From positions 1-64,000 of the forward strand of contig NZ_AQQR01000020.1 of NCBI RefSeq assembly GCF_002210095.1: 64,000 bases of DNA, in the 5' to 3' direction. The notes under the pieces are model-generated. The model was not told where the DNA came from. It was given only the letters and a program-made list of their open reading frames with translations, and made no database searches. Below are positions 11,863-29,530 of this stretch, piece by piece. Made by a program: the position numbers and the translations under genes. Each line of letters starts with the position of its first letter. Within the stretch, counting starts at the first letter, position 1. Source of the stretch: Marinibacterium profundimaris. GTDB lineage: Bacteria > Pseudomonadota > Alphaproteobacteria > Rhodobacterales > Rhodobacteraceae.

Positions 11863-13065
11863 TCAGCGGTCTTTTTGGTTGATGATCAGTTCTGCATTCT
11901 CGGGCAGTTCCGCAACAATGCTCACCGCGTCGGCACGGATCCTGGCATGCAATTTAAAGGCCTCAGCTGCGGCCGCTTCCGCAGCTGAGGCGTCGGCGCC
12001 GTCTTCCAGCACAAGCGAAAGCCGGATCATGTCACGGTCACTTTCGCGTGTCACCACGGCCTGCGCGGCTTTTGCGCCAGGCGTACCGATGACAACTTCT
12101 TCAACCACGCGCGGATAAACGAAAATCTCGCGCACTTTGACCGCTGCGCCGACCCTGCCCTGCAGCGCTGAAATCCGGCTGACGGTGCCATCCGCGTTGC
12201 TCTCAAGCGCCAAGGCACTGTCGCCGGTGCCGAACCGGATCATCGGCCACGTAGCATCGCGCGCGGTCACGACAACCTCGCCTGGTTCACCATGGGCGAC
12301 CTGTTCCCCGCTGACCGGATCGCAGATCTGCACCACGCGGTCGGGATGAACCAGATAGCCGTCGCCGCCATCCTCATAGGCGACAAGGCCCAGATCGGCT
12401 GTGGCATAGGCGGCCCAGGTCGACACGCCGTAATCGGCCTCGATCCGGCGGCGTTTGGCCATCCAGTCGCCCATTTCCCCGCCCAGAAAGGCGGTTTTCA
12501 CCTTCCATGCGTCGCGGCCATAGGTTTCGATCACCTTGTCCGCCAGCGTCAGGAAAAACGCAGTCGAAGCACAGATCGAAGTCACGCCGGTTTCGACGAT
12601 GATTTGTGCCTGAAGCTCGGTGTTGCCGACGCCGCCCGGGATCACAGTGGCGCCTGCGGCCTGTGCCGCTTCGTCGAACAGCAGGCCAGCCGGTACCAGA
12701 TGATACATCCAGGTGTTCAGGATGATATCTCCCGGCCCCACGCCTGCGGCCTTGAACAGAAGGTCAAGGCCGTGGCCGCCACCGCCCGAAAGGGCTGGTT
12801 CGAAAATCGGGCCGGGGGACACGTAGATTCGCCCGATATCCTTTAAATCCGAGGCGAGGAACCCGCCAAAAGGCGGGTTCTCGCGCTGAATTTTCAGAAG
12901 CTCTTCCTTCTTCATCACTGGAAGGCGCGAAAGGTCCGCCACCGATGTGACGGCTGCCGGATCGAATCCGGCAGCCGTGAATCGCGATTTCAGACCAGGA
13001 GCCTTTTCGGCCGCAGCGGCATAGGCTTGCGCTATATCTCGGTAGATATCATCAGACATTTCCAT
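11863..13065 (-). CDS. PaaK-like adenylate-forming enzyme (phenylacetate-CoA ligase family), divergent
   Basis: A 400-residue protein resembling phenylacetate-CoA ligases: N-terminal DLSRLPVMKKEEL, a central AYATADLGL, PMIRFGTGD at the ribose-binding aspartate position and a C-terminal subdomain. The usual nucleotide P-loop SSGTTG is not recognisable; its place reads VSPGPIFEPALSGGG. ATP use may therefore be altered, or the protein may be a relative with another role. It is last in its operon, followed by a strong terminator. Candidate role: CoA ligation of an acid intermediate. Confidence 0.75.
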   Translation of the reverse strand: MEMSDDIYRDIAQAYAAAAEKAPGLKSRFTAAGFDPAAVTSVADLSRLPVMKKEELLKIQRENPPFGGFLASDLKDIGRIYVSPGPIFEPALSGGGGHGLDLLFKAAGVGPGDIILNTWMYHLVPAGLLFDEAAQAAGATVIPGGVGNTELQAQIIVETGVTSICASTAFFLTLADKVIETYGRDAWKVKTAFLGGEMGDWMAKRRRIEADYGVSTWAAYATADLGLVAYEDGGDGYLVHPDRVVQICDPVSGEQVAHGEPGEVVVTARDATWPMIRFGTGDSALALESNADGTVSRISALQGRVGAAVKVREIFVYPRVVEEVVIGTPGAKAAQAVVTRESDRDMIRLSLVLEDGADASAAEAAAAEAFKLHARIRADAVSIVAELPENAELIINQKDR

Positions 13066-13086: not shown

Positions 13087-13896
13087 TTAAAGCGGGCAGT
13101 CCTTACGGAAGTTCGGCGTGCGCTTCTCGCGGTGCGACAACACACCCTCCTTGACGTCCTCGCTCATGAAGCCAAGCATCTCCAGCGCGGTCGACGCATC
13201 AAAGATCGGCCCGGCCTGGCGCAGCCAGTTGTTCAGCGAATACTTGGTCCAGCGAATCGCGCTTTGCGAGCCGTTGGCTAGTTCGACGGCTGTATCCAGC
13301 GCGATCTGCTGCAGCTCGTCATCCTCGACGCACATTGATACCAGACCGATACGCTCGGCCTCTTCGCCCGACACCGGCTTGCAGGTCATCAGATAGTATT
13401 TCGCCTTGGCCATCGAGGTCAGCAGCGGCCAGATAATCGCCGCGACGTCACCGGCGGCAACACCAAGGCGGGGATGACCATCGACAATCTTGGCCCGTTT
13501 TCCGGCGATCGAGATGTCGGCCAGGATGGCAACCACAAGGCCCGCGCCGGCCGCAGGGCCATTGATCGCGGAAATGATCGGCTTGTTGCAGTTGATGATG
13601 TTGTAGACGAGATCCTTGGCTTCTTTCCACGTCTTCATGATCTCGTGCGAGTCCCCGATCATCTTTTCAATCAGGCTGAAATCGCCACCGGCGGAAAACG
13701 CCTTGCCCGCACCGGTCACGATAACCGAATTGATGTCTGGGTCACGGTCGATATCGATCCACATGTCCGTCATCTGGGTGTGAGTTTCGGCATCGACCGA
13801 GTTAAACGTCTCGGGCCGGTCGAACGTGATGCGCAGCACGCGATCCGCCGGGTAGTCAAATTTCAGTTTATCGTATTTTGCATAACGATCCGACAT
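13087..13896 (-). CDS. Enoyl-CoA hydratase/isomerase family protein
   Basis: A 269-residue crotonase-fold protein with the first oxyanion segment FSAGGDF (67-73) and the second GPAAGAG (113-119). The acid position carries D150 in GVAAGDVAA, not the hydratase Glu pair. The start at 13896 has GGAGG upstream; a longer in-frame version would overlap the acyl-CoA dehydrogenase gene. It lies between the alpha-type dehydrogenase and the PaaK-like gene, within the operon that starts at the palindrome near 17.37 kb. Confidence 0.88.
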   Translation of the reverse strand: MSDRYAKYDKLKFDYPADRVLRITFDRPETFNSVDAETHTQMTDMWIDIDRDPDINSVIVTGAGKAFSAGGDFSLIEKMIGDSHEIMKTWKEAKDLVYNIINCNKPIISAINGPAAGAGLVVAILADISIAGKRAKIVDGHPRLGVAAGDVAAIIWPLLTSMAKAKYYLMTCKPVSGEEAERIGLVSMCVEDDELQQIALDTAVELANGSQSAIRWTKYSLNNWLRQAGPIFDASTALEMLGFMSEDVKEGVLSHREKRTPNFRKDCPL

Positions 13897-13924: not shown

Positions 13925-15076
13925 TCAGCCAGGCAGTCCCAGGACGGCCTTGGACAGGATGTTTCTTTGGATTTCGTTCGATCCACCGTAGATCGTGGTA
14001 GGTCTGGCCTTGTAGAAACTCGCCAGAACATCGACACTTACGTTGCCGACTTGGAGCGGCCCGATGGAGCCGCCATCGGGTCCGGCTGCTTCGATCATCA
14101 GCTCGGTGATGCGCTGGAAGCATTCAGTCACCCAAATCTTCAGCATGGAGACATCCGCACCCAGCGTCTCGCCACGTTTGAGCTGATCTGCAAAACGGGC
14201 ATAAAGCGCGGCATGATCTTCCACATCCAGTGCCGCCTGGGCAAATCGATCGCGAAACACCGGATCATCAAACGCGCCACGGCCCCGTGCAAAGCTTTCC
14301 AATTGCCCCAGTGCGTTCTGGGCCAGGCTTGGCGAACCGATGAAGATGCGCTCGAAGCTCAGGAGAGCCTTGGCCATCGTCCAACCCTTGTTCAGCTCGC
14401 CCACAAGGTTCTCGCGGGGCGTCCGGGCATCGTCAAAGAAGACCTCACAAAACTCAGTTTCACCCGAGAGGGTCTTGATCGTGCGAACATCGACTCCGGG
14501 CTGATCCATCGGAGCAAGCAGGAAACTGATGCCCTGTTGTTTCTTGGGTGCATCCGGATCGGTGCGCACCAGCATGAAAATGTGCGTAGCGTCATGCGCC
14601 ATCGTGGTCCAGATCTTCTGTCCGTTGATGACAAAGTCGTCCCCGTCAATTTCTGCACGCGTGCGCAGGTTCGCCAGATCGGACCCAGCGCCCGGCTCTG
14701 AGTAGCCTTGGCACCAGATGTCATCGCAACTCAGGATACGCGGCAGCCAGTAATCTTTTTGGTCCTGGGTGCCGAACTTGATGATCAGAGGGCCGACCAT
14801 CTGCACGCCCATATCGCGGCCACGATTGACGCCCCAGCGTTGCTGCTCTTCGTAGAAAATCAGCAGCTTGGCGGCGTTCAGGCCCATGCCACCATATTCT
14901 GTGGGCCATGCTGGCGCGACCCAGCCCTTCGCGTGCAGCTTGCGGTGCCAGTGTTCGATCTCGGCGAACTTTGGACGGTGCGGCAGATGGCGCAGCTCTT
15001 CGGGGTATTCGGCCTCGAAGAACTGGCGCACCTCCTTGCGGAACTCTGCATCGGTCATTGCGTTCCAGTCGGTCAT
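13925..15076 (-). CDS. Acyl-CoA dehydrogenase, catalytic (alpha) subunit of a probable heteromer
   Basis: A 383-residue acyl-CoA dehydrogenase with GYSEPGAGSDLANL, FVINGQKIWTT and the C-terminal TIYGGSNEIQRNIL. The C-terminal Glu position is Gly (IYGG), but helix G has LSFERIF with E242 at the alternative base position. Its ATG overlaps the stop of the upstream dehydrogenase gene (ATGA at 15073-15076). Adjacent dehydrogenase pairs of this kind form alpha2beta2 enzymes in steroid degraders (ChsE1-ChsE2). The partner lacks a base, which supports that assignment here. Likely reaction: alpha,beta-dehydrogenation of a bulky side-chain acyl-CoA. Confidence 0.9.
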   Translation of the reverse strand: MTDWNAMTDAEFRKEVRQFFEAEYPEELRHLPHRPKFAEIEHWHRKLHAKGWVAPAWPTEYGGMGLNAAKLLIFYEEQQRWGVNRGRDMGVQMVGPLIIKFGTQDQKDYWLPRILSCDDIWCQGYSEPGAGSDLANLRTRAEIDGDDFVINGQKIWTTMAHDATHIFMLVRTDPDAPKKQQGISFLLAPMDQPGVDVRTIKTLSGETEFCEVFFDDARTPRENLVGELNKGWTMAKALLSFERIFIGSPSLAQNALGQLESFARGRGAFDDPVFRDRFAQAALDVEDHAALYARFADQLKRGETLGADVSMLKIWVTECFQRITELMIEAAGPDGGSIGPLQVGNVSVDVLASFYKARPTTIYGGSNEIQRNILSKAVLGLPG

Positions 15077-16197
15077 TGTGCGGCCCCCTCTGCTTCGCGT
15101 GCCTCGAACCATATCCGCCTGTGATAGGCATCGTCGCCCAACCAGGCCGACAGCACCAACGCCCGGTTCAGATAGAGCCCGATATCGAATTCGTCGGTAT
15201 AGCCGACCGCGCCATGAAGCTGGATCGCATCACGAGTGATTTTTTTGGCCGCGGTCACCGCACGTGACTTGGCCCGGCTGGCCAACCGGGCGCGGATCTT
15301 CGGATCCGTTTCGCCGTCCATCTGCGCCAGAGCTTCGCCGACGCCTGCCTGCGCGACCTCGCACATCACGTGAAGGTCGACAGCACGGTGCTGGATGACC
15401 TGGAATGACCCGATCGGCTTGTCGAACTGCTCCCGCGTCTTGATGTAATCGAGCGTGATCTCGAAGGCGCGCTCGCTCAGGCCGACAAGCTCGGCGGCGG
15501 CAAGCGCCGTTGCATCGACGACAGCCTCGGCCAGCGCGTCCTGAACCGCTCTTCCGCTGGCCAGTTCGGCGGCCGGGGTTCCCGAAAACGAAAGCTCGCC
15601 CAAGGAACTGCCATCGGCTTGCGCACGCTTGTTGATGACGAACCCGTCCGCGTTTGCCTCGACCAATACCAGAACCTGACCATCGTCTCCCTGGGTCACA
15701 ACAAGGAACCCTTGCGATCCGGCCGCGCCGGCCACCCAAGCCTTGGCGCCGGTCAGCTTTCCGTCTGCGTATCGGCAGGTCGCATCGGCGGGCGCTCCGC
15801 CCGGGCCGCGTTCCTGCCAGGCAACCGCCAGCACAGTTTCGCCGCTGATGAGTTGTGGCACCTTCGGATGATCCGGGCAAAGGCGGCGCAGAAGACCGAG
15901 GCTCAGACCGATCGTCAACACGACCGGTTCCGGGGCAATCACGCGACCGACCTCTTCGGCGATGATGCCGGCAGCGGCCAGGCCCATGCCAAGCCCGCCC
16001 TGATCTTCGGGCACCGCCACCCCGAAAACGCCGGCCTCGGCGAGTTCCCGGACCATCTCCGCATCGAAACCGCCCCCGGCATCACGAAGTTTTCGGGCTC
16101 TGTCACTTCCGCCCGCCCGTTCAAACAACGTGCGCGCGCTCTCGCGCAACAGGCGAAGGTCTTCTTGTTCGCTGGAAAGGATATCAGTCTGTGTCAT
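15073..16197 (-). CDS. Acyl-CoA dehydrogenase-like protein, non-catalytic (beta) subunit candidate
   Basis: A 374-residue acyl-CoA dehydrogenase fold protein with AVPEDQGGLGMG, TREQFDKPIGSFQVIQHR and ITRDAIQLHGAVGYTDEF. No Glu is visible at either base position (helix G reads VVDATALAAAE; the C-terminus reads SAWLGDDAYHRR). It is therefore probably the structural or FAD-completing partner of the downstream dehydrogenase, as in ChsE1/ChsE2-type alpha2beta2 enzymes. The gene overlaps both neighbours by a few bases, fitting strict co-translation. Confidence 0.88.
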   Translation of the reverse strand: MTQTDILSSEQEDLRLLRESARTLFERAGGSDRARKLRDAGGGFDAEMVRELAEAGVFGVAVPEDQGGLGMGLAAAGIIAEEVGRVIAPEPVVLTIGLSLGLLRRLCPDHPKVPQLISGETVLAVAWQERGPGGAPADATCRYADGKLTGAKAWVAGAAGSQGFLVVTQGDDGQVLVLVEANADGFVINKRAQADGSSLGELSFSGTPAAELASGRAVQDALAEAVVDATALAAAELVGLSERAFEITLDYIKTREQFDKPIGSFQVIQHRAVDLHVMCEVAQAGVGEALAQMDGETDPKIRARLASRAKSRAVTAAKKITRDAIQLHGAVGYTDEFDIGLYLNRALVLSAWLGDDAYHRRIWFEAREAEGAAQ

Positions 16198-16633
16198 TTT
16201 GTTTTCGCTGGATCATCACGGGGGTGTCGGTCGAAAAAACGACCTCGCCCGCAGGGTTTTTGGCGCTGAGCGTATAGTGCAAAACACCTCTGTCGGGCTT
16301 GCTTTTTGACGGCGTGACCGCGTTGACCGTCAGTTCGACATCAAGGGGTTCGTTCGGGCGCACCGGCCGCAGCCAGCGCAGATTGTCAAAGCCCATGCCA
16401 CCGATATTGGCGACATCGACCATCATTTCAGACATGACCGGCCTAAACACTTCCAGCATCGTCTGAAAGCCCGAGGCGATCAGGCTGCCATGTATGGCGG
16501 TTGCATAGTTTTCGTCGGTGTGCAGCCGCTGCGGATCCCATTCCTCGGCAAACGCCTTTATCGAACCCGCGCTCATCGGAGCGCTGCGAAAGCGATAGAC
16601 CTGGCCCGGCGAGAAGTCTTCCAGATACCTCAA
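16184..16633 (-). CDS. MaoC-family (R)-enoyl-CoA hydratase
   Basis: A 149-residue single hot-dog protein with the hydratase-2 motif FAEEWDPQRLHTDE (D33 and H38 the likely catalytic dyad), followed by AIHGSLIASG. It hydrates a 2-enoyl-CoA, producing the substrate for a dehydrogenase or a retro-aldolase. It overlaps the dehydrogenase gene downstream and the transglutaminase-like gene upstream by a few bases. In igr-type operons a MaoC protein sits in the same position next to the heteromeric dehydrogenase. Confidence 0.88.
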   Translation of the reverse strand: MRYLEDFSPGQVYRFRSAPMSAGSIKAFAEEWDPQRLHTDENYATAIHGSLIASGFQTMLEVFRPVMSEMMVDVANIGGMGFDNLRWLRPVRPNEPLDVELTVNAVTPSKSKPDRGVLHYTLSAKNPAGEVVFSTDTPVMIQRKQNDTD

Positions 16634-17349
16634 GAGGCACCCTCCTTTGCGAAACCGTCATCGTATCCGCTCGCATCCTTGGATATCCGGATGCGGTTGA
16701 ATTCTTCCAGCTTCGGATAGGTTTCCTTGAACGCCACCAGGAACTCACCCATCGGCGCGTCGAAATAGAGACCACGGTCGTTCACATATTCCATGTGTCG
16801 GTGATTCTGTTCGTCGAACTCATGAAAGAGCGCGTCGTGATAGCCGTCGAAGACCAGGGGTTTGACCCCGAATCTTTCACACAGTTCCATGTTGAATGCA
16901 GGTGTCACCTTGTAGGCCTCATTCCCCAACCACAGTTGAACGTAGCCGTGGTAGATAAAGAGATCGGTCCCCATCAACTCCTGCAACTTGGGTGTATTCA
17001 GGTGGTTGCGCACATCCGCGAACCCCAGTGCGGCTGGGATACCCACAGCACGCAGACAAGCCGCCAGCAGAATTGCCTTGGGAACGCAAAACGCCGCTTC
17101 CGCCCCAGCGATACGGCTGGCACGGTAAGAGTCCTCATCCAGCGCGAAACAATAGGGATCATAGCGAATATCGTCGCGCACCGCTTCGAACAGGCGGACC
17201 GCCTTGTCTCGATTGGTTGCGTCCAAAGGAAGATCACGCAAAGCCGATGTCACGAAACCCTGCACTTCCAAGCTATCGCTTTCCACAAAGCGCGATGGCA
17301 TGACATAACGCTCAGCATCAGTCGGCAGGTCATCGTCAGACTTGTCCAT
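16630..17349 (-). CDS. Transglutaminase-like (papain-fold) protein in an acyl-CoA operon
   Basis: A 239-residue protein of the transglutaminase-like superfamily. A Cys in GAEAAFCVPKAILLA (C88) is followed by LRAVGIPAALGFADVRNH, then a His in IYHGYVQLWL (H134) and TPAFNMEL, where the third triad member is Asn (N153) rather than the usual Asp. No signal peptide is seen, so it is probably cytoplasmic. It is the first gene of the operon and begins 15 bases from the palindromic operator; GGGAGGGG precedes the ATG. Its role in acyl-CoA metabolism is unknown; a cysteine acyl-transfer, thioesterase or amidase function is possible. Confidence 0.82.
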   Translation of the reverse strand: MDKSDDDLPTDAERYVMPSRFVESDSLEVQGFVTSALRDLPLDATNRDKAVRLFEAVRDDIRYDPYCFALDEDSYRASRIAGAEAAFCVPKAILLAACLRAVGIPAALGFADVRNHLNTPKLQELMGTDLFIYHGYVQLWLGNEAYKVTPAFNMELCERFGVKPLVFDGYHDALFHEFDEQNHRHMEYVNDRGLYFDAPMGEFLVAFKETYPKLEEFNRIRISKDASGYDDGFAKEGAS

Positions 17350-17364
17350 TGGCCCCTCCCTTTT

Positions 17365-17380
17365 TCTAACAAGTGTTAGA
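17365..17380. promoter_or_regulatory. Palindromic operator TCTAACAAGTGTTAGA
   Basis: A 16-bp inverted repeat, symmetric except for its two centre bases, 15 bp upstream of the transglutaminase-like gene. The same motif recurs at 21026, 24640 (one half decayed), 37240 and 39703 (weak). Size and symmetry fit a TetR-family repressor site. Confidence 0.8.
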
Positions 17381-17412
17381 TTACCGATTCAAAACCTGCC
17401 CGTCAACGGGAT

Positions 17413-18555
17413 TTACTCTGTCATCGGTTGGTCCACGCCATAACGCGCATTGTCTTTGCCCAAGGTGGCTGCAACTCCGACCGAATTTCCCGAAGAACGG
17501 AACTCCGGCGCAATTGGCAGCGGCAAAGCGGGCGTGTTCCGGTCAGAGATTTTTACGGTCCGCCCGAACACGTCACGCGCTTTGAAATGCGGGTCGCGCG
17601 CCGCCTCGGCGGGCGTTTTCACGACCGAACAGCAGCAATCGGCCGCAGCCAGCAGAGGCTCCCAATGGGTCGAGGGGTGTTTCCTCAGACGACGCGCAAC
17701 CTCCGCGGCACTGGCATCGGGATCGGACCAGTCATCGCGAAGTGCCACCGGCAAACCAATGACATCGCAGAACGACTGCCAGAACTTTTCTTCCAACGCG
17801 CCGACGGCGATCTGACGCCCGTCCGCAGCCGTATAAAGCCTATACCGGGCCAGGCCACCCGTCAGGCGGCTGCTACCGTTTTTAATGTTCTGCCCGGCAA
17901 TCACACCTTCGGCATGGGCCCAATAGGCAAAGGCGAACGCCCCCTCGGACATTGCGATATCCAGATGCGTCCCCTGCCCGCTTGCCTGCCGCGCAATCAG
18001 GGCCAGCAGGATATTCATCACTGCAGGATAGGTTCCGCCTCCGATATCGGCGACCAGTCCGAACGGTGCCGTTGGCTGGTCATCCGGTCCGCGACTGAGC
18101 GACAGGATACCCGTATCACCGACGTAGTTGAGGTCGTGGCCGGCTGCGCTGGCCTTTGGTCCGGTCTGGCCATAGCCGGTGATCGAACAATAGATGAGAC
18201 CGGGATTGATCTCGCGCAGAGCATCATAACCAAGCCCGAGCCGGTCCATCACGCCGGGACGGAACTGCTCTACCAGAACATCGGCCTTCTCGATCAAGGG
18301 GCGCAGCCATTCCACTGCACCCCTCGACTTGAGGTCGATGGCAACCGATCGCTTGCCGTGGTTCAACACGGCAAATCCGATGCTCTCTCCGTCGATCTTG
18401 GGCTCCGTGTGGCGCGCGTCCTCGCCGACTCCGGGCCGTTCGAACTTGATTACTTCGGCCCCGACCTCGGACAGCATGAGCGTCGCCATCGGACCGGGAA
18501 GAAGTGTGCTGAAATCCAGCACCAGGATATCCTTGAGCGGTTGAGCCATCTTCAC
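17413..18555 (-). CDS. CaiB/BaiF family protein resembling alpha-methylacyl-CoA racemase
   Basis: A 380-residue family III CoA-transferase-fold protein. The segments AAGHDLNYVGDTG (H140) and LVADIGGG (D170) match the catalytic His/Asp pair of alpha-methylacyl-CoA racemase (AMACR/MCR) rather than a simple transferase. Such racemases invert the 2-methyl centre so that stereospecific dehydrogenases can act on sterol or isoprenoid side chains. The ATG at 18555 or the one two codons later could be the start. It is last in the operon that begins with the DUF35 gene at 20973. Confidence 0.85.
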   Translation of the reverse strand: MKMAQPLKDILVLDFSTLLPGPMATLMLSEVGAEVIKFERPGVGEDARHTEPKIDGESIGFAVLNHGKRSVAIDLKSRGAVEWLRPLIEKADVLVEQFRPGVMDRLGLGYDALREINPGLIYCSITGYGQTGPKASAAGHDLNYVGDTGILSLSRGPDDQPTAPFGLVADIGGGTYPAVMNILLALIARQASGQGTHLDIAMSEGAFAFAYWAHAEGVIAGQNIKNGSSRLTGGLARYRLYTAADGRQIAVGALEEKFWQSFCDVIGLPVALRDDWSDPDASAAEVARRLRKHPSTHWEPLLAAADCCCSVVKTPAEAARDPHFKARDVFGRTVKISDRNTPALPLPIAPEFRSSGNSVGVAATLGKDNARYGVDQPMTE

Positions 18556-18559
18556 TACC

Positions 18560-19417
18560 TCAGGCGAAGCGTGCCGCGCCGTTGTTCAGAACAACCACAT
18601 CGCGTGCCGGGATCGACGCCCGGAACCGGGCCTCGCCGTCCTCTTCCCAGATTTCGAACCGCACGGTTTCGCCGGGATAGACCGGCGCCGAGAACCGAAC
18701 ATCCAGACCGACAAGCCGGGCCGCATCATAGTCAAGCAACGTCTTGAGAATCGCTCGGGCCGCCAGCCCATAGGTCGCCAGACCATGCAGGATCGGGCGG
18801 TCAAACCCGACAGAACGGGCAACATCCGGGTCAGCATGAAGCGGATTGAAATCACCGCTGAGACGATAAATAAGGGCTTGGCGCGGCAGGGTATCGATAT
18901 CACATACATGATCAGGCGCCCGATCAGGCAGCACTGCGGGTGCCGGACCCGCCTGGTTTTCACCGCCAAACCCCCCATCACCGCGACAGAAAGCCGACAT
19001 CGCCACGCGTGCCAGTTTTTCACTGCTGTCCGCGTCGATAATATCACGGCTTTGGTAAATGACGGCTCCCTTGCCCTCGCCCTTGTCGGCGATGAAGTCG
19101 ATCTTGCTGCGGCCGACAATCCGGCCATGTGTCGGCAGCGGCTTGTAGATGTCGAGCCACTGTTCTCCGTGCAGCACTTTTTGCCAGTTTACGCCGGTCT
19201 TGGGATCGCGCAGCCAGAAGCCGGGATACCCCAAAATGACCGCCATCGAGGGAACTGCCTTGAGCCCGTCCTCATAGACATAGGCCAGCTCCTTTTTGTC
19301 GGTCGGATCCTCGCCGAACCCAAGGCCGAGTGCATACAGGATGGTATCCCGCTCGGTCAGCGTCTGTTCGATTTCCTCAAAGTCCCAGTTCAACAGTGCA
19401 TCGAAATCCAATGGCAT
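18560..19417 (-). CDS. MaoC-type hydratase with double hot-dog fold (MFE-2 hydratase-2 like)
   Basis: A 285-residue two-hot-dog protein. The C-terminal half contains YRLSGDFNPLHADP with D189, N191 and H194, the hydratase-2 signature, followed by FDRPILHGLATYG. The N-terminal half (LAYVYEDGLKAVPSM) is the non-catalytic, substrate-binding repeat seen in eukaryotic MFE-2 and large bacterial hydratases, which handle bulky or 2-methyl-branched acyl-CoAs. It lies between the thiolase-fold and racemase-like genes with very short gaps. Likely role: hydration of the branched enoyl-CoA made by the dehydrogenases. Confidence 0.9.
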   Translation of the reverse strand: MPLDFDALLNWDFEEIEQTLTERDTILYALGLGFGEDPTDKKELAYVYEDGLKAVPSMAVILGYPGFWLRDPKTGVNWQKVLHGEQWLDIYKPLPTHGRIVGRSKIDFIADKGEGKGAVIYQSRDIIDADSSEKLARVAMSAFCRGDGGFGGENQAGPAPAVLPDRAPDHVCDIDTLPRQALIYRLSGDFNPLHADPDVARSVGFDRPILHGLATYGLAARAILKTLLDYDAARLVGLDVRFSAPVYPGETVRFEIWEEDGEARFRASIPARDVVVLNNGAARFA

Positions 19418-19440
19418 TTACTTTCCTCCCTTAGTTGCCG

Positions 19441-20592
19441 TCAGAGCGTGTTTTGCGATCCAAGTATGGCCGTGACCTGACTGGACAGCACACCACCATT
19501 GCCATGCGCCAGCGCCAGGTCGACATCTTTCAATTGAATGCCCGGCGCGTCGCCACGGATCTGACGCGCAGCCTCAATCACTGTGAAGATTCCGTACATC
19601 CCGGGGTGCACGCAGGACAGGCCGCCGCCATTCGTGTTCACCGGCAAGACGCCGCCAGGCGCGATGCGTCCGCCCTCGACAAAGGCCCCTCCCTCGCCCT
19701 TCGCGCAGAACCCAAGATCTTCGAGAAACAAAATCGTGTTGATGGTGAAGGCATCATAGAGCTCGACCGCCTGTATGTCCGCAGGGGTCACTCCGGCCGC
19801 CGCAAAGGCGCGCGCGCCCGAGTCGCGGGCCGCGGTCACGGTGAAATCCTTCATCTGGGAAATCTGCCGGTGCGAGCTCTCCGCCGCACTGCCCAGCACA
19901 TAGACAGGCGCCTTCGGGAAATCCCGGGCGCGGTCCGCGCGGACCATTACGATCGCGCCGCCACCGTCGGTGACAAGACAACAGTCGCGCACGGTCAATG
20001 GATCGCCCACCATGCGCGCACCCAGCACGTCCTCGCGGGTCAGCGGGCCGCGCTCGAACGCTTCGGGGTTGCGCTGCGCCCAGGCCCGCGCGGCGACGGC
20101 CACGTCGGCCAGCTGTTCGCGGGTGGTGCCATATTCATGCATGTGCCGCGCCGCCGCCATCGCATAGGCCGAGATCGGATAGCGCGGATTATACGGCGCC
20201 TCGTAGGCCGGCGGACGTGAAGCGGTCACCAGTCTGCCCGACGCGGTGCGCTGGTTGGAGCCATAAACAATCAGCGCGACATCACACAGACCGGCGTCCA
20301 GCGCCATGGTCGCGGACGTCAGGTAGTTTACGAAGGACGAACCGCCCGACATCGTGCCATCAATGAAACGGGGCTGGATGCCCAGATACTCCGCCGCCAT
20401 AAGCGCCGGCATGCTGTCTTCCATCATGGTGCAAAACAGCCCGTCGACGTCGGACAGTTTCAGCCCGGCATCGCCAAGCGCCGCAAGCGCAGATTGCGCC
20501 ATGACATCATAGGCCGTCAGGCCATGGGCTTCTCCGAAACCGGCATGACCAGTTCCCACGATGGCGGATTTCCCCCGAAGTTCAATGGTCAT
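19441..20592 (-). CDS. Thiolase-fold protein without nucleophilic cysteine (Ltp2-like aldolase candidate)
   Basis: A 383-residue SCP2-type thiolase-superfamily protein. The nucleophile region reads GTMSGGSSF (79-87) with no Cys. Tyrosines occur in ELYDAF (Y279) and HPGMYG (Y333), positions conserved in Ltp2-like aldolases. It lies directly downstream of a DUF35 gene, the partner required by Ltp2. With the MaoC and paired dehydrogenase genes this recreates the gene set for retro-aldol removal of a side chain. It is clearly paralogous to the protein at 1218-2363, with long identical runs such as DAFTIN and NTNGGGLSCVHPGMYG. Confidence 0.87.
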   Translation of the reverse strand: MTIELRGKSAIVGTGHAGFGEAHGLTAYDVMAQSALAALGDAGLKLSDVDGLFCTMMEDSMPALMAAEYLGIQPRFIDGTMSGGSSFVNYLTSATMALDAGLCDVALIVYGSNQRTASGRLVTASRPPAYEAPYNPRYPISAYAMAAARHMHEYGTTREQLADVAVAARAWAQRNPEAFERGPLTREDVLGARMVGDPLTVRDCCLVTDGGGAIVMVRADRARDFPKAPVYVLGSAAESSHRQISQMKDFTVTAARDSGARAFAAAGVTPADIQAVELYDAFTINTILFLEDLGFCAKGEGGAFVEGGRIAPGGVLPVNTNGGGLSCVHPGMYGIFTVIEAARQIRGDAPGIQLKDVDLALAHGNGGVLSSQVTAILGSQNTL

Positions 20593-20595
20593 GGC

Positions 20596-20973
20596 TTATC
20601 TCTCCGACGGCTTGAAAAGCACGGCCGGAGCGCCCTCGGCCTCGCCCACGAAAGCGGTTACAGGCATGTCGATAGCGACCTCACCCGGGGCGATGCCCTC
20701 GACCCGGCTCATCATCCGGACACCCTCGTCCAGCTCGACGACACATACGTTGTAGTCACCGCCCCGTTCGGGTTTTCGGCGCACGACCGTTGTGGTGTGG
20801 ACCCGTCCCTTGCCCCTCGCCTTCATCCAAGAAATCGCGCTGCCATGACAATGGGGACACAAGACTCTCGGGAAAAAGTGATAGGCCCCGCAGTCGTCGC
20901 ACTTTGGCAGCAGGATCTCTCCCTCTGCCAGCGCGCGTTGGAAAAATTGGTCTGGTCCTATGGCGTCCTGCAC
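20596..20973 (-). CDS. Zn-ribbon/OB-fold (DUF35) protein, aldolase partner
   Basis: A 125-residue DUF35 protein with zinc cysteines at 25, 28, 39 and 42 and the OB-fold segment VVRRKPERGGDYNV, identical to that of its paralogue at 835-1221. It should bind the thiolase-fold protein encoded three bases downstream. The start is GTG at 20973 with AGGAG upstream. It is first in the operon, and the palindromic operator lies about 50 bases upstream. Confidence 0.88.
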   Translation of the reverse strand: MQDAIGPDQFFQRALAEGEILLPKCDDCGAYHFFPRVLCPHCHGSAISWMKARGKGRVHTTTVVRRKPERGGDYNVCVVELDEGVRMMSRVEGIAPGEVAIDMPVTAFVGEAEGAPAVLFKPSER

Positions 20974-21077: not shown

Positions 21078-22223
21078 ATGCCAGGTTCAGACTTAGCCCC
21101 CCTTTCCGGCAAACTCGTCGTTGCGTTGGAACAGGCAGTCGCCGCGCCTTTTTGCTCCTCGCGGCTGGCCGATGCCGGCGCGCGCGTGATCAAGATCGAA
21201 CGCAAGGGAGCCGGCGATTTCGCCCGCGCCTACGATACCGCCGCCAACGGCGAAAGCGCCTATTTCACATGGCTTAACCGAGGAAAGGAATCGGTGGCGC
21301 TGGACATTAAAGCCGACGAGGACCGGGAAATCCTGCTCAGGATTCTGGAAAACGCGGATGTGTTTATTCAGAACCTCCTGCCGGGCGCGCTGGCCAAGCT
21401 CGGGCTCGATTCCACAAGTCTGCGAAAGAGGTTCCCGCGCCTGGTGACCTGCGACATCACCGGATATGGCGAAGACGGCCCGATGCGCAACGCCAAGGCC
21501 TACGACCTTCTTGTGCAATGCGAAAGCGGTCTGGCATCAGTGACCGGTACACCCGACGGACCAGGACGGGTGGGCGTGTCGGTCTGCGATATCGCCACCG
21601 GTATGACAGCCCATGCTGGAATCTGCGAAGCACTTGTCGGGCGTGATCGCACCGGCAAGGGCAGCGGCGTTTCCGTAGCAATGTTCGATGTGATGGCCGA
21701 CTGGATGTCGGTACCGCTGCTGTATCACGATTACCTTGGCAAGCCTACACCGCGTGTCGGGCTGAACCACACGGTCATCTGTCCCTACGGGGCCTATCAG
21801 TGCAAAGACGGCCAGCTTGTCGTCATTACCGTGCAACACAACGGCGAATGGCAACGGTTCTGTGAACACATACTGGGCGACGCGGCGCTGGCAACCGACC
21901 CCCGTTTTCACGACAACACGTCACGAATTGAAAACAAACCCGCGCTCGAAGAGCTCATCAAGGCCGTGTTCGCCTCGCATGATCGCACCGAGATGCTGAA
22001 GCGCCTTGACGCTGCGGGCATTGCCTCCGGCGCGGTGAACGACGTGGCGTCCCTGTCCGATCACCCGCAGCTTGACCGATCCGTGATAGGCACACCCTCG
22101 GGCGAGATCAACGTCCCGACACCCCCGATCCGGCGCAGCCTCGGCGAAACGGCACTGGGCCCCTGCCCGGCCTTCGATGCGGAAGGTGAAGCCATACGCG
22201 CCGAATTCGGGCCCCTTTCATGA
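21078..22223 (+). CDS. CaiB/BaiF class III CoA-transferase
   Basis: A 381-residue family III CoA-transferase. The predicted aspartyl nucleophile is D171 in SVCDIATGMTAH; the N-terminus has VALEQAVAAPFCSSRLADAGARVIKIER. The ATG at 21078 was chosen because it gives the family's usual N-terminus and lies just after the palindrome; a much longer open frame exists upstream but would run through the operator. It is first in a two-gene plus-strand operon with another CoA-transferase, divergent from the aldolase operon. Confidence 0.9.
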   Translation: MPGSDLAPLSGKLVVALEQAVAAPFCSSRLADAGARVIKIERKGAGDFARAYDTAANGESAYFTWLNRGKESVALDIKADEDREILLRILENADVFIQNLLPGALAKLGLDSTSLRKRFPRLVTCDITGYGEDGPMRNAKAYDLLVQCESGLASVTGTPDGPGRVGVSVCDIATGMTAHAGICEALVGRDRTGKGSGVSVAMFDVMADWMSVPLLYHDYLGKPTPRVGLNHTVICPYGAYQCKDGQLVVITVQHNGEWQRFCEHILGDAALATDPRFHDNTSRIENKPALEELIKAVFASHDRTEMLKRLDAAGIASGAVNDVASLSDHPQLDRSVIGTPSGEINVPTPPIRRSLGETALGPCPAFDAEGEAIRAEFGPLS

Positions 22224-22254
22224 AAACGGTGGACAACTAAAACGGTGGACAACC
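22223..22254. repeat. 16-bp tandem duplication at a gene junction
   Basis: AAAACGGTGGACAAC occurs twice head to tail (22223-22237 and 22239-22253, plus one spacer base each). It starts in the stop codon of the first CoA-transferase gene and ends three bases before the next ATG. The duplication copies GGTGG, which can act as ribosome binding site for the second gene. Confidence 0.85.
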
Positions 22255-22256
22255 AA

Positions 22257-23423
22257 ATGACCGCTGAGAACAAACCGGCGATCCTTCAAGGCGTGAAGAT
22301 CGTCGATCTGACTTCTGTAGTTTTCGGACCTTTGGCGACGCAGATGCTGGGCGATCTGGGGGCCGATGTGATCAAGGTGGAAGGCCCCGAGGGCGATCTT
22401 CTTCGCCAGGTCCAGCCATCGCGCAACAAGCTGATGGGGGCCGCTTTTCTGGGGACCAACCGTAACAAGCGCAGTGTCGTACTCGACCTCAAAACACAAA
22501 CCGGTCGCGATCAGTTGCGCAAACTGCTCATCGATGCCGATGTGATGATTTCGAGCATCCGGCCTGCGGCGCTTGCCAGATTGGGTTTGGATCCCGAATC
22601 CCTACGCCAGAAAAACCCGAACCTGATCACGGTATCCGCCACCGGTTTCGGGCAGGACGGGCCCTATGCCGCCAAGCCTGCATTCGACGATTCCGTCCAG
22701 TCGGTGTCGGGATTGGCCAGCTTGGCTACCTTGCGCGACCCCGAGGCACCGCCCGCTTATGCCCCGACAATTCTCGCCGATAAGCTTGGCGGGGTCACTG
22801 CTGCCTATGCCGTGATGGGTGCTCTGTTCCACCGCGAGCGCACTGGAGAAGCCCAGCATGTCGAGGTTCCGATGTTTGAAACGCTGGCCGCCTTCCTGTT
22901 GATCGAACATATGGATGGTGCCACCTTTGAAGAGGCTCCGCAGGATTTCGGCTATGCCCGCATGCTGGTTCCGCACAGGCGTCCGGTTCAGACGGTAGAT
23001 GGCTATATCACCATTCTGCCCTACACCAACGTGCAATGGGCGCGGTTCTTTCAGGCGGTCGGGCGCGACGACATGATCGACCATGTCTGGGTCACTGACA
23101 TGGATGCCCGAAGCCGCAACATCGGCGCGGTATACGATATGGTGGCGCAGATTGCGCTGACCCGGACCACGGATGACTGGCTTGCCCTGATGGAGCAGGC
23201 AGACATACCCGCCATGCCGGTGCGCAACCTGTCAGATTTGCCGAACGATCCCCATCTTGCCGCGACCGGCTTCTTCCAACGGATTGATCACCCATCCGAA
23301 GGACCGATCTGGACGACACGCCCGCCGATACGATTCTCGGCAACACCGGCGCGGCATGATCATCGCCCGGCCCCGCGACTTGGGGAACACAGCGACGAGA
23401 TTCTGGTGCCGGGTAGGGAATAG
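22257..23423 (+). CDS. CaiB/BaiF class III CoA-transferase
   Basis: A 388-residue family III CoA-transferase with IVDLTSVVFGPLATQMLGDLG at the N-terminus and the predicted nucleophile D175 in TILADKLGG. The start at 22257 is favoured because GGTGG lies eight bases upstream; an in-frame GTG at 22245 lies in the tandem duplication and has no ribosome binding site. Co-transcribed with the preceding CoA-transferase. Two adjacent, dissimilar members could form a heteromer or act on successive intermediates. Confidence 0.89.
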   Translation: MTAENKPAILQGVKIVDLTSVVFGPLATQMLGDLGADVIKVEGPEGDLLRQVQPSRNKLMGAAFLGTNRNKRSVVLDLKTQTGRDQLRKLLIDADVMISSIRPAALARLGLDPESLRQKNPNLITVSATGFGQDGPYAAKPAFDDSVQSVSGLASLATLRDPEAPPAYAPTILADKLGGVTAAYAVMGALFHRERTGEAQHVEVPMFETLAAFLLIEHMDGATFEEAPQDFGYARMLVPHRRPVQTVDGYITILPYTNVQWARFFQAVGRDDMIDHVWVTDMDARSRNIGAVYDMVAQIALTRTTDDWLALMEQADIPAMPVRNLSDLPNDPHLAATGFFQRIDHPSEGPIWTTRPPIRFSATPARHDHRPAPRLGEHSDEILVPGRE

Positions 23424-23444: not shown

Positions 23445-24602
23445 TCAAACATCCAGCGAACGCGCGATCAGTTCCTTCATGATCTCGTTGGTGCCGCCAT
23501 AGATCATCTGGACCCGGCTGTCGGCATAAAGACGCGCGATGGGGTATTCCATCATGAAACCGTAACCGCCGTGCAGTTGCAGGCATTCATGCATGACCTC
23601 GTTCTGCGTCTGGCTGCCCCACCACTTCGCCATCGAAGCCGTGGCCGCATCAAGTTCGCCCGCTTCAAGACGCGCGAGCCCGTCATTTACGAAGGAACGT
23701 AGCAATTCGGCCTTGGTTTTGCATTCCGCCAGTTTGAAGCGTGTATTCTGGAAGTCCATGATCCGGCTTCCAAATGCCTTGCGGTCCTGAACATATTTCA
23801 CCGTTTCATCGATCGCAAAATCAATAAAACCGAGGGCGGTAATGCCGATCATCAGCCGCTCCCAAGGCAGCTGCTTCATCAGCTGGTAGAACCCCTGCCC
23901 CTCTTCCGGACCAAGCAGGTTCGCCGTAGGCACGCGCACATCCTCGAAGAACAGCTCAGCAGTATCCGAACCTTTCATACCCAGTTTCTTCAGGTTCCGT
24001 CCCCGGCGAAAGCCCTCGGCGCCCTCGGTTTCCAGAACGATCAACGAAACGCCCTTAGCGCCGGCGTTGCGGTCGGTCTTTGCCACGATAACAACGAGAT
24101 CCGCCGTGTGCCCGTTTGTGATAAAGATCTTCGAACCGTTGATCTTGTAGTGGTTGCCATCCTTTTCCGCATAGGTTTGTACGTTCTGGAGGTCAGAGCC
24201 CGTTCCAGGCTCGGTCATGGCAATCGCCGCAACGCTGTCGCCGATGACCAGTTTCGGCAACCACTTTTTCTTCTGTTCCTCACTGCCATATGCGTTGAGA
24301 TAATGGATTACGATGGACTGGATCCCATAGCCCCAACCCGTATCACCGGTGCGCCCCTGCTCGTAGACGGTAATCGCGTCGAACCCGATGCCGCCACCGA
24401 ACCCACCATATTCTTCGGCAATCGAGCCACCCATGACACCCTGCTGACCGACTGTTTTCCAGAAGTCGCGGTCAACAATTCCCTGCTCCGCCCATTTTTC
24501 AATCTTCGGAGCCATCTCTGCATCGAAAAGCCTGCGTGTACTATCGGCGAACATCTTGTGTTCATCCACTGCCCAACTCGGGGAGTTCTTGATCAGAGAC
24601 AT
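23445..24602 (-). CDS. Acyl-CoA dehydrogenase
   Basis: A 385-residue FAD acyl-CoA dehydrogenase with [24 protein letters not shown], and the C-terminal [20 protein letters not shown] and [12 protein letters not shown]. Helix G carries the base Glu in LPWERLMIG, as in isovaleryl-CoA dehydrogenase and FadE-like enzymes. It is a single-gene minus-strand unit whose start lies 37 bp from a partly conserved copy of the operator palindrome. Likely step: dehydrogenation of a medium or branched acyl-CoA, with electrons passed to the adjacent ETF. Confidence 0.92.
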
Positions 24603-24639
24603 GTTTTATTCCTATCGAGTCATGCTTGCATTGAAAAAA

Positions 24640-24655
24640 TCTAACAAGTGTTTTT
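24640..24655. promoter_or_regulatory. Partly conserved operator copy (TCTAACAAGTGTTTTT)
   Basis: The left half matches the palindrome at 17365 exactly; the right half is decayed after TGTT. It is upstream of the acyl-CoA dehydrogenase gene, so it is probably a weaker site of the same regulon. Confidence 0.55.
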
Positions 24656-24753
24656 TTCTCACAATGAACCCGAGCCGTTCTGACGGGGCGTCACACGGCT
24701 TCGGACCGTGCGCATCCGGATTTATCCAATCAACGCGCCGCCCATTCGGCTCG

Positions 24754-24791
24754 TATAAAAAGGCCCGACAAAACAGGCGGGCCTTTTTATA
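24754..24791 (-). terminator. Terminator of the liv-etf operon
   Basis: A perfect 14-bp inverted repeat, TATAAAAAGGCCCG (24754-24767) and CGGGCCTTTTTATA (24778-24791), just after the end of etfA on the minus strand, with a T run in the descending arm. It can work in both directions. Confidence 0.88.
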
Positions 24792-24806
24792 CTTTTTTGC
24801 AATGGC

Positions 24807-25733
24807 TTACAGCTTGTCGGTCAGTTCGGGCACGGCCTCGAACAGGTCGGCGACCAGACCGTAATCGGCAACCTGGAAGATCGGGGCCTCTTCGTCCTTG
24901 TTGATCGCGACGATGATCTTGCTGTCCTTCATGCCCGCAAGGTGCTGAATCGCACCCGAGATGCCGACGGCGATATACAGGTCAGGCGCGACCACCTTGC
25001 CGGTCTGGCCGACCTGCCAGTCGTTCGGTGCAAAGCCCGAGTCGACGGCGGCGCGGGATGCGCCAACGGCGGCGCCCAGCTTGTCGGCCAGTTTCTCGAT
25101 CAGCGCAAAATCGTCTTCCGAGCCGACGCCACGGCCGCCCGAAACCACGATACCGGCCGAGGTCAGTTCGGGACGGTCGCTTTCGGCGACCTTGTCTTCG
25201 ACCCATTCCGACAGGCCCGAAACGGATGCGCCGCCCACGGTTTCCACGGCGGCCGAGCCACCGGTGCCGGCCGCGTCGAAGCTGGCGGTGCGGAAGGACA
25301 CGACCTTTTTTGCGTCGCCCGATTTCACCGTCTGGATCGCGTTACCTGCATAGATCGGGCGCTCGAACGTGTCGGCATCGACCACGCCGGAGACATCGGT
25401 CAGCATCATCACGTCCAGCAGCGCGGCCACGCGGGGCAGCACGTTCTTGGCGTCGGTGGTGGCGGGTGCCACGATGTGATCGTAGTCGCCTGCCAGCGAC
25501 ACGATCAGGTCGGCGGTCGATTCCGCCAGGCGATGACCCAGCGCGGGGTCTTCGGCGACCAGCACCTTGGCCGCGCCGTCGATTGTCGCGGCTTCTTTCG
25601 CGGCGTCGGCGGCAGACGCGCCGGCGCACAGAACCGTCACGTCGCCCAGGGCCTTGGACGCGGTGACCGCCTTTGCGGTCGCGTCCATCGATAGTTCACC
25701 ATTGTTGACTTCGGCAAGAAGAAGAACAGCCAT
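24807..25733 (-). CDS. etfA: Electron transfer flavoprotein alpha subunit
   Basis: A 308-residue ETF alpha subunit. The C-terminal FAD-binding domain has [59 protein letters not shown] and [11 protein letters not shown], all standard. With EtfB it accepts electrons from the acyl-CoA dehydrogenases of this cluster and passes them to ETF-ubiquinone oxidoreductase. The ATG at 25733 overlaps the etfB stop (TGATG); the GTG just before is less likely. Roseobacters usually have another etf pair elsewhere, so this one may be dedicated to the pathway. Confidence 0.96.
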
Positions 25734-26491
25734 CACACCGCCCCCTTTTCCTTGAGTTTCGCAACCAGCTCGTCGACCGAGCCAACCATTTCACCGGCGG
25801 CGCGTTCGGGCGGCTCGGACGTCTTGACCACGGTCAGGCGCGGGGTGACGTCGACGCCATAGTCGGCGGCCGTCTTTTCATCCAGCGGCTTTTTCTTGGC
25901 CTTCATGATGTTGGGCAGCGACGCATAGCGCGGTTCGTTCAGGCGCAGGTCGACGGAAACGACGGTCGGCATCTTGACCTTGATGGTCTGCAGGCCGCCA
26001 TCGACCTCGCGGGTGACGACGGCGCTGTCGCCATCGATGCCCACTTCCGAGGCAAAGGTCGCCTGGCTCCAACCGAGGATCGCCGACAGCATCTGGCCGG
26101 TGGCATTCATGTCGTTGTCGATCGCCTGCTTGCCGCAGAGAACCAGACCGGGCTGTTCCTCTTCCACGACCTTGGCAAGGATCTTGGCCACTGCCAGCGG
26201 CTCGATATCCTGGTGCACGTCATCCGCTGCGACGACCAGGATGGCGCGGTCGGCGCCCATGGCCAGTGCGGTGCGCAGGGTTTCCTGCGCCTGTTTGACG
26301 CCGATGGATACCGCGACGACCTCTTCGGCCTTGCCGGCCTCTTTTAGGCGGATCGCCTCTTCGACGGCGATTTCGTCGAACGGGTTCATCGACATCTTAA
26401 CGTTGGCGAGATCGACACCGCTGCCATCCGCCTTGACGCTGACCTTCACGTTGTAGTCGATCACCCGTTTCACAGGCACGAGTACCTTCAT
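25733..26491 (-). CDS. etfB: Electron transfer flavoprotein beta subunit
   Basis: A 252-residue ETF beta subunit: [16 protein letters not shown] at the N-terminus, the signature [22 protein letters not shown], and the AMP-binding segment [18 protein letters not shown]. Length and motifs are complete. It precedes etfA with a one-base stop/start overlap and follows two crotonase genes in the operon that begins with the livG homologue. Confidence 0.96.
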
Positions 26492-26533
26492 TGGCGTGGT
26501 CTCCTTGAGTTTTGCGATAAGGTTTCAACCGAG

Positions 26534-27316
26534 CTAACGGTCTTTGAATTCTGGAGTTCTTTTTTCCGAAAACGCTTTCATCGCTTCGGGAAAGTCATGC
26601 GCGCACAGCAAAACGCTTTGGGCATCGCGCTCGATATCCAGCGCCTCGAGATAGCTGCACTCGGCTGCGGCGCGCATCACACGCTTGGCGGTCTGAACGC
26701 CAAACATCGGGTGCGTTGCAATCTCGCGGGCAATTTCCAACGCCCGTACTTCGACCTGGTTGGCCGGCACACATTCTTCGACAACGCGCAGGTCCCTAGC
26801 GGTGCGCCCGTCGATTTCACGGCCCGTGAGCACAAGCATCCGGGCCACGCCCGCACCGGCGCGCTGCTGAAGCAGCCAGCTTGATCCCGTGTCGGGACAA
26901 CCGCCGACGCGTGCAAATACTTCGCACAGCCGGGCATCTTCGGCGGCAACGACAATGTCCGCCGACAAGGCCAGGCTGAGGCCCGCGCCAAAAGCCACGC
27001 CGCATACCGCAGAAATCAGAGGTTTGCGAAACAGATAGGCCGCGCGTCCGCCATCGTGAACCAGGTCCACCATTTCCGACGTCGCCCGCGCGCCTTTGGC
27101 GATCTCGGACTGAAACCCGACAAGATCGCCGCCGCTGCTGAAATGATCGCCGCCGGTCATGACAACGGCACGGATCGTAGCGTCCCGTTCGGCTTCGCGC
27201 AGGAGCGCCACCAGTTCTTCGACGAACCCGATGCTGTAAGGGTTGCGTTTTGTCGGCTGAAGAAAACGCAGGATTCCGACAGGGCCTTCCCTGTCCAGGC
27301 GAATAAGCTCAGTCAT
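26534..27316 (-). CDS. Enoyl-CoA hydratase/isomerase family protein
   Basis: A 260-residue crotonase-fold protein. The oxyanion segments are FSSGGDLVGF (59-68) and CGVAFGAG (105-112). The acid position reads GCPDTGSS (D142) with no Glu pair, similar to the cluster's other isomerase-like members. It is located between another crotonase gene and etfB on the minus strand; the 11-base gap to the upstream gene supports co-transcription. Confidence 0.88.
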   Translation of the reverse strand: MTELIRLDREGPVGILRFLQPTKRNPYSIGFVEELVALLREAERDATIRAVVMTGGDHFSSGGDLVGFQSEIAKGARATSEMVDLVHDGGRAAYLFRKPLISAVCGVAFGAGLSLALSADIVVAAEDARLCEVFARVGGCPDTGSSWLLQQRAGAGVARMLVLTGREIDGRTARDLRVVEECVPANQVEVRALEIAREIATHPMFGVQTAKRVMRAAAECSYLEALDIERDAQSVLLCAHDFPEAMKAFSEKRTPEFKDR

Positions 27317-27327
27317 TCAAGTCTCCA

Positions 27328-29433: not shown

Positions 29434-29460
29434 GTTTTCTCTCTCCCGTTGGTTTGGTTT

Positions 29461-29499
29461 GGGGCGGTGATACCGTTTCGTAAACGCCGCTGCCGCCCC
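29461..29499 (-). terminator. Hairpin after the second substrate-binding protein gene
   Basis: GGGGCGG (29461-29467) pairs with CCGCCCC (29493-29499) across a 25-base loop, between the two tandem binding-protein genes. It is weaker than the hairpin at 28144 and has no U tract, but sits in an equivalent place. Confidence 0.4.
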
Positions 29500-29530
29500 G
29501 CGTAGCGTCGCCCTTCCTGCTACCAGTCTT

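Follow-up and report, generated by a model that had tools for sequence, protein, structure and literature searches.

A plasmid-borne gene block of Marinibacterium profundimaris encodes a candidate thiolase-fold retro-aldolase that differs from the steroid side-chain enzymes

Contig NZ_AQQR01000020.1 of Marinibacterium profundimaris (hereafter C13; 70,241 bases, from a 6.15-Mb genome in 60 contigs) was analysed over its bases 1–64000, referred to here as the window, and carries at 13925–20973 a block of eight co-directional minus-strand genes in the order P0008, P0007, P0006, P0005, P0004, P0003, P0002, P0001 (Table 1). We consider it probable that this block is a plasmid-borne operon which degrades a small alpha-methyl- or beta-branched acid (possibly dicarboxylic or alicyclic) through a cycle of dehydrogenation, hydration and retro-aldol cleavage, the last step falling to the thiolase-fold protein P0007 and its DUF35 partner P0008. 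Its gene content, its conservation, the residues of P0007, the separation of P0007 from thiolases in a tree and the plasmid setting are directly observed. A sequence-only reading of the window had likened the block to the mycobacterial igr operon, while allowing that it might serve another acid; that analogy serves for mechanism and misleads as to membership, the caveat was the better half of the reading, and the most likely account of the block is a new form of thiolase-fold retro-aldolase module that handles non-steroid acids.

The residues of P0007 carry most of this argument. We aligned 124 distinct rows (six of them thiolases, three of these near-identical) and compared four signature columns: that of the nucleophile of thiolases, positions one and three of the HDxF/YDxF motif, and a fourth column holding the His of the thiolase GHP motif or Tyr344 of TcLtp2. 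The thiolases read C-H-x-H in all six rows. P0007 instead presents Gly84, Tyr279, Ala281 and His329 (a YDAF motif), with Gly84 aligned to the nucleophilic Cys of BbsB, of 7yvy and of an SCP2-type thiolase from the same genome, and Tyr279 at the column of TcLtp2 Tyr294 and CtSal Tyr302. The same Gly-Tyr exchange is found in all six rows formed by Ltp2, Sal, IpfD and three near relatives, which differ further along the signature: G-Y-H-Y in TcLtp2 and one pIBU218 protein, G-Y-C-Q in CtSal and one Sulfitobacter dubius protein, G-Y-A-Y in IpfD and G-Y-C-Y in one Rhodococcus protein. The remaining 112 rows constitute the P0007 class, G-Y-A/S-H (107 with Ala, 5 with Ser). Excerpts of the literature, cited here by PMC number, identify Tyr294 and Tyr344 of TcLtp2 and Tyr302 and Cys304 of CtSal as catalytic, and describe CtSal as incapable of thiolysis owing to a Gly in place of the SCP-2 thiolase Cys (PMC12329534). 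As judged from the alignment, P0007 thus shares both of the changes that distinguish proven aldolases from thiolases, and differs from both aldolases in its likely general acid.

The description of P0007 as cysteine-less in the sequence-only reading holds for the nucleophile position and not beyond it, since other Cys residues are retained (e.g. C204 and C205). We considered these as replacement nucleophiles and discarded them: Cys327 is not conserved, and the 204/205 pair is also present in TcLtp2. The closest solved structure by sequence, PDB 4u4e, bears the chain name "Thiolase" and has YDSF, GGSSF and HPGMYG motifs. The predicted model of P0007 (predicted local distance difference test score, pLDDT, 77.8) was used at the level of fold only.

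In a maximum-likelihood tree built from 45 of these 124 rows, four thiolases stand apart from the other 41 with support of 100/99; the 41 fall into three distinct groups, namely Sal (2 rows, 100/100), Ltp2 with IpfD (4 rows, 97/85) and that of P0007 (35 rows, 82/93). Joining P0007 and its nearest row with IpfD/Ltp2 was rejected by the approximately unbiased (AU) test (p 0.026). By sequence P0007 is thus a member of a third lineage, the tree leaving open the point at which the long thiolase branch attaches. A phylogeny placing P0007 among active thiolases would, by the terms of the sequence-only reading, have counted against it; the tree separates them instead, with P0007 bearing the Gly and Tyr, but a grouping of P0007 with the thiolases was not rejected (see below), and we give the residue evidence more weight than the tree.

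Several observations speak against a retro-aldolase assignment and are set together here. The tree software issued a warning that long branches were meeting, and these included IpfD and the thiolases; a clade of the six known or near aldolases without P0007 was only 0.09 log units worse (AU p 0.508), and a tree uniting P0007 and its nearest row with the thiolases was not rejected at 0.05 (AU p 0.087). His329 is followed by Pro, a thiolase-like arrangement, P0007 does not keep the residues found on the acid side in CtSal and TcLtp2, and our literature search found no published assay of a G-Y-A-H protein. The DUF35 partner is not diagnostic of retro-aldolases either, because BbsA is also a DUF35 protein; true thiolases with such partners include BbsAB and an archaeal acetoacetyl-CoA thiolase (excerpt of PMC12329534). 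The search for KshA discussed below had no control over the cut-off. Finally, a Pseudomonas aeruginosa relative of P0007 adjoins an acetate–CoA ligase family gene that we take to be PauA, and this neighbour, together with the dicarboxylate phenotypes described below for a PimCD-like pair, would also fit ordinary beta-oxidation.

That last point leads to the alternative we regard as a lesser but serious prospect, namely that the block performs beta-oxidation of branched or straight dicarboxylic acids, with P0007 catalysing a cysteine-independent thiolase or other Claisen-type reaction. The NCBIfam name for the P0007 family, acetyl-CoA acetyltransferase, would agree with it, as would the retained His329-Pro and the company of the Pseudomonas relative (the acetate–CoA ligase family gene, a MaoC protein, a dehydrogenase pair and a short-chain dehydrogenase/reductase). 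A literature search for that Pseudomonas cluster by locus number yielded one microarray paper and no substrate. The exchange of the nucleophile for Gly and of the HDxF His for Tyr in 112 of 112 class rows argues in the opposite direction. The dehydrogenases bear on both sides. P0001 and P0002 have the pimeloyl-CoA dehydrogenase PimCD as their nearest NCBIfam families, yet score far below the equivalog cut-offs (623.85 and 652.7 bits, respectively; scores in Table 1). P0001 is nearer to PimC than to Tcur3483 (34% identity), and an excerpted transposon-fitness study ties a PimCD-like pair, kin to ChsE1–ChsE2, to C8–C12 dicarboxylates (PMC12543098); the dehydrogenase pair is therefore not a steroid marker. 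Against this, a PimC-like paralog on contig C11 of the same genome (45% identical to P0001) is closer to PimC than P0001 is (493 vs 313 bits), such that straight dicarboxylates may have their own pair, and an AMACR would presumably be unneeded for a straight chain. The open reading frame (ORF) following the C11 paralog is 30% identical to P0002, and Tcur3481 33%; we assume a steroid role for Tcur3481 and Tcur3483. Simple pimelate degradation is accordingly less likely and is retained within this rival.

P0005 aligns with the AMACR structures 8rmw and 1x74 through AGHDxNY and DxGGG stretches (the Asp preceding GGG), whose His and Asp residues we presume to include the catalytic ones, and P0006 aligns through YRLSGDxNPLH with 1s9c, peroxisomal multifunctional enzyme type 2.

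Conservation supports treating the genes as a unit. Pattern matches in genome contigs encode relatives of the family alignment in at least 587 of at least 590 cases, and we compared the best 80 of these at least 587 relatives as named loci; the complete 19 kb is present in only 54 of the 80, so that absences may reflect contig ends. A close form of P0007 (85–99% identity) occurs in 17 of the 80. In 15 of these 17 the ten-gene order from the PaaK-like ligase to DUF35 is complete, from which we conclude that the association is not due to chance. The two exceptions are a 4.5-kb contig (L111) and a locus (L115) with a 100-N gap spanning the double hot-dog hydratase and racemase, a small MaoC matched over only 32% of its length, and neither gene of the divergent CoA-transferase pair. 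Of the 17, 16 have the transglutaminase-fold gene P0004 within the block; it was not seen in the remaining 63 loci, among which there are also no CaiB genes with P0005 as best window match. An adjacent dehydrogenase pair does occur in 18 of these 63 and the double hot-dog hydratase in 29. DUF35 lies less than 150 bp upstream of the thiolase-fold gene in 79 of the 80 loci. In the window the co-directional run continues through the enoyl-CoA hydratase to the PaaK-like gene, with intergenic gaps of −14 to +63 bp. The dehydrogenase genes P0001 and P0002 overlap as the sequence-only reading had stated, by 4 bp with the start used in annotated relatives (383 aa) or by 40 bp from the longest ORF (to 15112). 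That reading had also named the other genes of the block correctly as to family and place (the dehydrogenase pair, small MaoC, AMACR-like racemase, double hot-dog hydratase, thiolase fold and DUF35), overlooking only P0004.

Every one of 42 aligned rows has the Cys88 and His134 of P0004, and a search of 398 genomes of the phylum gave matches of 40–53% identity in 21 besides the window's own. Plasmids of Rhodococcus and Mycolicibacterium encode proteins that are ~50% identical; in the four such actinomycete loci examined (L086–L088, L090) the relatives lie near P450 and FAD-oxidoreductase genes, in three near a BtrH-domain gene and in three near an acyl-CoA ligase gene, a company unlike that of the Roseobacter block. 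In Foldseek the P0004 model (pLDDT 87) matched 3isr, a putative cysteine protease (E 1.5e-05), and, less well, arylamine N-acetyltransferases (NAT; E 0.003 and worse). At a guess, P0004 may act on a CoA ester by acyl transfer or hydrolysis. Such a protein could also transfer a product, which would suit a scheme in which P0007 and P0008 work synthetically, by aldol addition or acyl transfer, to build a modified product; thiolase folds with DUF35 do form C–C bonds, in PhlABC and the 3-hydroxy-3-methylglutaryl-CoA synthase complex (excerpt of PMC12329534). The catabolic company of several dehydrogenases, EtfAB, enoyl-CoA hydratases and uptake transporters leaves this scheme a slim chance.

The igr operon (ChsE1-ChsE2, ChsH1-ChsH2, Ltp2) and its Comamonas testosteroni counterpart, ORF40-44 (both described in excerpts of PMC12502768), likewise cluster a heteromeric dehydrogenase, a MaoC hydratase, a thiolase fold and a DUF35 protein, and the functions proposed by analogy (to dehydrogenate, hydrate and cleave by retro-aldol reaction) are supported. 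Membership is not: P0007 has G-Y-A-H (YDAF, His329) where Ltp2 has YDHF and Tyr344; P0008 consists of zinc ribbon and OB fold only, with separate MaoC proteins, in place of the ChsH2 MaoC–DUF35 fusion; the block adds AMACR, double hot-dog hydratase and transglutaminase-fold proteins; and the large dehydrogenase is nearer to PimC. The bile acid aldolase CtSal–CtShy (PDB 9myr) shares with P0007/P0008 the Gly at the nucleophile position, the catalytic-position Tyr and a DUF35 partner, but has YDCY with essential Cys304 and Gln352, and a Cys3His1 zinc finger in CtShy compared with two CxxC motifs in P0008. A Sal-type protein (YDCY, fourth-position Gln) that groups with CtSal at 100/100 is encoded on a Sulfitobacter dubius plasmid (L186, 4001–5547) with a zinc-ribbon protein, a MaoC and an acetoacetate–CoA ligase gene.

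The non-steroid precedent is IpfD/IpfE of the ibuprofen plasmid pIBU218 (the IpfD gene being picked out by its neighbours), which has the same YDAF, lacks the nucleophilic Cys and has a DUF35 partner. IpfD differs from P0007 in overall identity (37% over the match), in a Tyr at the fourth position, in grouping with Ltp2 (97/85, on a long branch) and in having a ring dioxygenase alongside. The ipfDE-encoded product, called a thiolase by the authors, yields propionyl-CoA according to the excerpted text (PMC9195938). In addition to ipfDE the plasmid carries a second pair (L101, 1939–3503), an Ltp2-type protein (YDHF) and an OB-fold protein, adjoining CaiB and enoyl-CoA hydratase genes.

Of the three rivals, a genuine igr-type module acting on the steroid C-17 side chain has the slimmest chance, and we judge a steroid role unlikely: the functional set is the same, the best PDB matches are Tcur3483, Tcur3481 and the ChsH2 DUF35, and steroid genes occur in some Rhodobacteraceae metagenome-assembled genomes (MAGs; excerpt of PMC5790920), but P0007 lies outside the Ltp2 and Sal clades and lacks their residues, the ChsH2 fusion is absent, the transporters are of Liv and TRAP (tripartite ATP-independent periplasmic) types, and KshA (KshA_C, PF19298) had no match in this genome, rated 100% complete, in a search where none of 14 control genomes passed the cut-off and which thus has no positive control.

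The operon reading can be cast as a reaction scheme whose steps, substrate and action of P0004 on an acyl-CoA intermediate we infer. A ligase would form the CoA thioester, and P0005 would fix the configuration at the alpha-methyl carbon. A P0001/P0002 heteromer would then form the alpha,beta-enoyl-CoA, with electrons passing to EtfAB, and P0003 and/or P0006 would hydrate it. P0007 with P0008 would cleave the resulting beta-hydroxyacyl-CoA, Tyr279 acting on the beta-hydroxyl and His329 (the counterpart of Ltp2 Tyr344) probably protonating the leaving enolate. The products would be acetyl- or propionyl-CoA and a carbonyl compound, for which a ketone is favoured, given that no aldehyde dehydrogenase is annotated in the four stretches checked (L055, L056, L194 and L195, whose gene tables are incomplete). 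The substrate is likely a small branched acid, as suggested by the AMACR, the ibuprofen IpfDE precedent, the PimCD-type dehydrogenases and small-acid-type transporters. Habitats and titles of relatives (oil water, algae, a MAG labelled "XylDeg") were suggestive only and were dropped as a guide to substrate.

The block is borne on a plasmid and recurs on Roseobacter plasmids. The window encodes ParA-like, RepB and RepC proteins, from which we assign C13 to a RepABC plasmid, and plasmid p5 of Sagittula sp. MA-2 has a match at 97–100% identity for each of the 27 proteins that are correctly translated from the 10.8–39.7 kb part of the window. At a threshold of 1e-40, P0007 has matches in 179 of 72,556 plasmid records, and 35 of these reach 90% identity or above; among the matches listed the latter are all Alphaproteobacteria, mostly Roseobacters, many seawater or algal. 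A wider tblastn count for the family, which may include true thiolases, gives 337 of 72,556 at 1e-20. Within the order, 38 of 292 genomes have a match at 1e-60 (the window's own counted); besides its own, nine matches in nine genomes of nine other genus codes are 94–98% identical to P0007 (a tenth, 84%), which points to transfer between genera. An IS3-type integrase-core gene (40170–40928) borders the catabolic region. Elsewhere on this plasmid contig, 56350–60615 holds a row of vitamin B5 and NAD synthesis genes: pantoate ligase, ketopantoate hydroxymethyltransferase, QRPTase and an FAD-binding/succinate-dehydrogenase-type flavoprotein (possibly NadB).

Table 1. Genes of the block, its conserved surroundings and the plasmid replication genes, with window coordinates.
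Feature	Coordinates	Strand	Basis and remarks
DUF35 partner P0008	20596–20973	-	Pfam zf-ChsH2 + OB_ChsH2_C; zinc ribbon (CxxC...CxxC) + OB fold; best PDB 6ok1_B, 9myr_B
Thiolase-fold P0007, predicted retro-aldolase	19441–20592	-	NCBIfam PRK06158, 642 bits (cut-off 421); PDB 4u4e, 9myr (CtSal), 6ok1 (TcLtp2)
Double hot-dog MaoC hydratase P0006, MFE-2 hydratase-2 type	18560–19417	-	MFE-2_hydrat-2_N + MaoC domains; PDB 1s9c
CaiB family III P0005, AMACR-like racemase	17413–18555	-	PF02515; best PDB 8rmw/1x74 AMACR
Transglutaminase/NAT-fold P0004	16630–17349	-	PF01841, 33.1 bits (cut-off 23)
Small single hot-dog MaoC hydratase P0003	16184–16633	-	PF01575
Acyl-CoA dehydrogenase small subunit P0002 (PimD/ChsE type)	15073–16197	-	Best NCBIfam pimD_small, 150.5 bits; best PDB 6wy8_A, Tcur3481
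Acyl-CoA dehydrogenase large subunit P0001 (PimC/ChsE type)	13925–15076	-	Best NCBIfam pimC_large, 313.8 bits; best PDB 6wy9, Tcur3483
Enoyl-CoA hydratase/isomerase, same run	13087–13896	-	NCBIfam PRK07327, 420.6 bits (cut-off 292); conserved neighbour
PaaK-like acyl-CoA ligase, same run	11863–13065	-	Weak PaaK matches, 109–119 bits; conserved neighbour
Two divergent CaiB/BaiF CoA-transferase genes	21078–22223, 22245–23423	+	Pair conserved in most of 17 close loci
Acyl-CoA dehydrogenase, EtfA, EtfB, two enoyl-CoA hydratases	23445–28104	-	Mostly travel with the block
Branched-chain-type ATP-binding cassette transporter (two binding proteins, LivF, LivM, LivH, LivG) + acyl-CoA ligase	28183–36306	-	Annotated relatives
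Second DUF35 (826–1215) + thiolase-fold (1218–2363) pair	826–2363	+	Thiolase-fold protein 63% identical to P0007, same signature
ParA-like	46347–47558		
RepB	47629–48657		
RepC	48818–50098		

A single stretch of a Sulfitobacter alexandrii plasmid is collinear with both the end of contig C8 and the beginning of C13, and from this collinearity we infer that the two contigs join. C8:53560–82886 and C13:1–39747 together hold three DUF35/thiolase-fold pairs (that of P0007, the second pair of Table 1, and one at C8 62962–64540), each with MaoC and dehydrogenase genes within ~10 kb; the thiolase-fold protein of the third pair shares 49% identity with P0007 and carries YDSF. The transporters of this wider cluster are those of Liv and TRAP types mentioned above. 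The block of Pseudosulfitobacter pseudonitzschiae has as neighbours a molybdopterin-binding subunit, a (2Fe-2S) protein and a CoA-transferase. On a Roseovarius indicus plasmid (L194, 30217–33440) the two aldolase pairs are separated by genes for a CoA transferase and two dehydrogenases that the annotation gives as shortened or split ORFs; the first block and second DUF35–thiolase pair appear intact there. We also considered IpdAB-like ring cleavage by a CoA-transferase pair of the wider cluster, and set it aside given that the beta subunit is nearer to glutaconate CoA-transferase (1poi, 93.4 bits) than to 6co6 (43.3 bits), which we take to be IpdB.

Retro-aldol chemistry of the thiolase fold has so far been shown mainly for steroid side chains, and in a literature search of open-licence papers, which is not proof of absence, we recognised no description of this block or of such chemistry for PRK06158. 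Tentatively, and short of what we would call probable, we propose that the PRK06158 family is a third class of thiolase-fold retro-aldolase (Gly-Tyr-Ala/Ser-His) serving aldolytic beta-oxidation of non-steroid branched acids, and that Roseobacter plasmids gather three aldolase–DUF35 pairs within ~70 kb, one of them dependent on a transglutaminase/NAT-fold enzyme with a new acyl-CoA activity. The residue rule, Cys-His versus Gly-Tyr, makes the claim testable with one enzyme pair. If it is true, many genes annotated as thiolases would be misnamed, acyl-CoA catabolism would gain an uncharacterised transglutaminase-fold partner, and thiolase-fold retro-aldol cleavage would commonly serve marine and soil bacteria to break down branched acids, instead of being confined chiefly to steroids.

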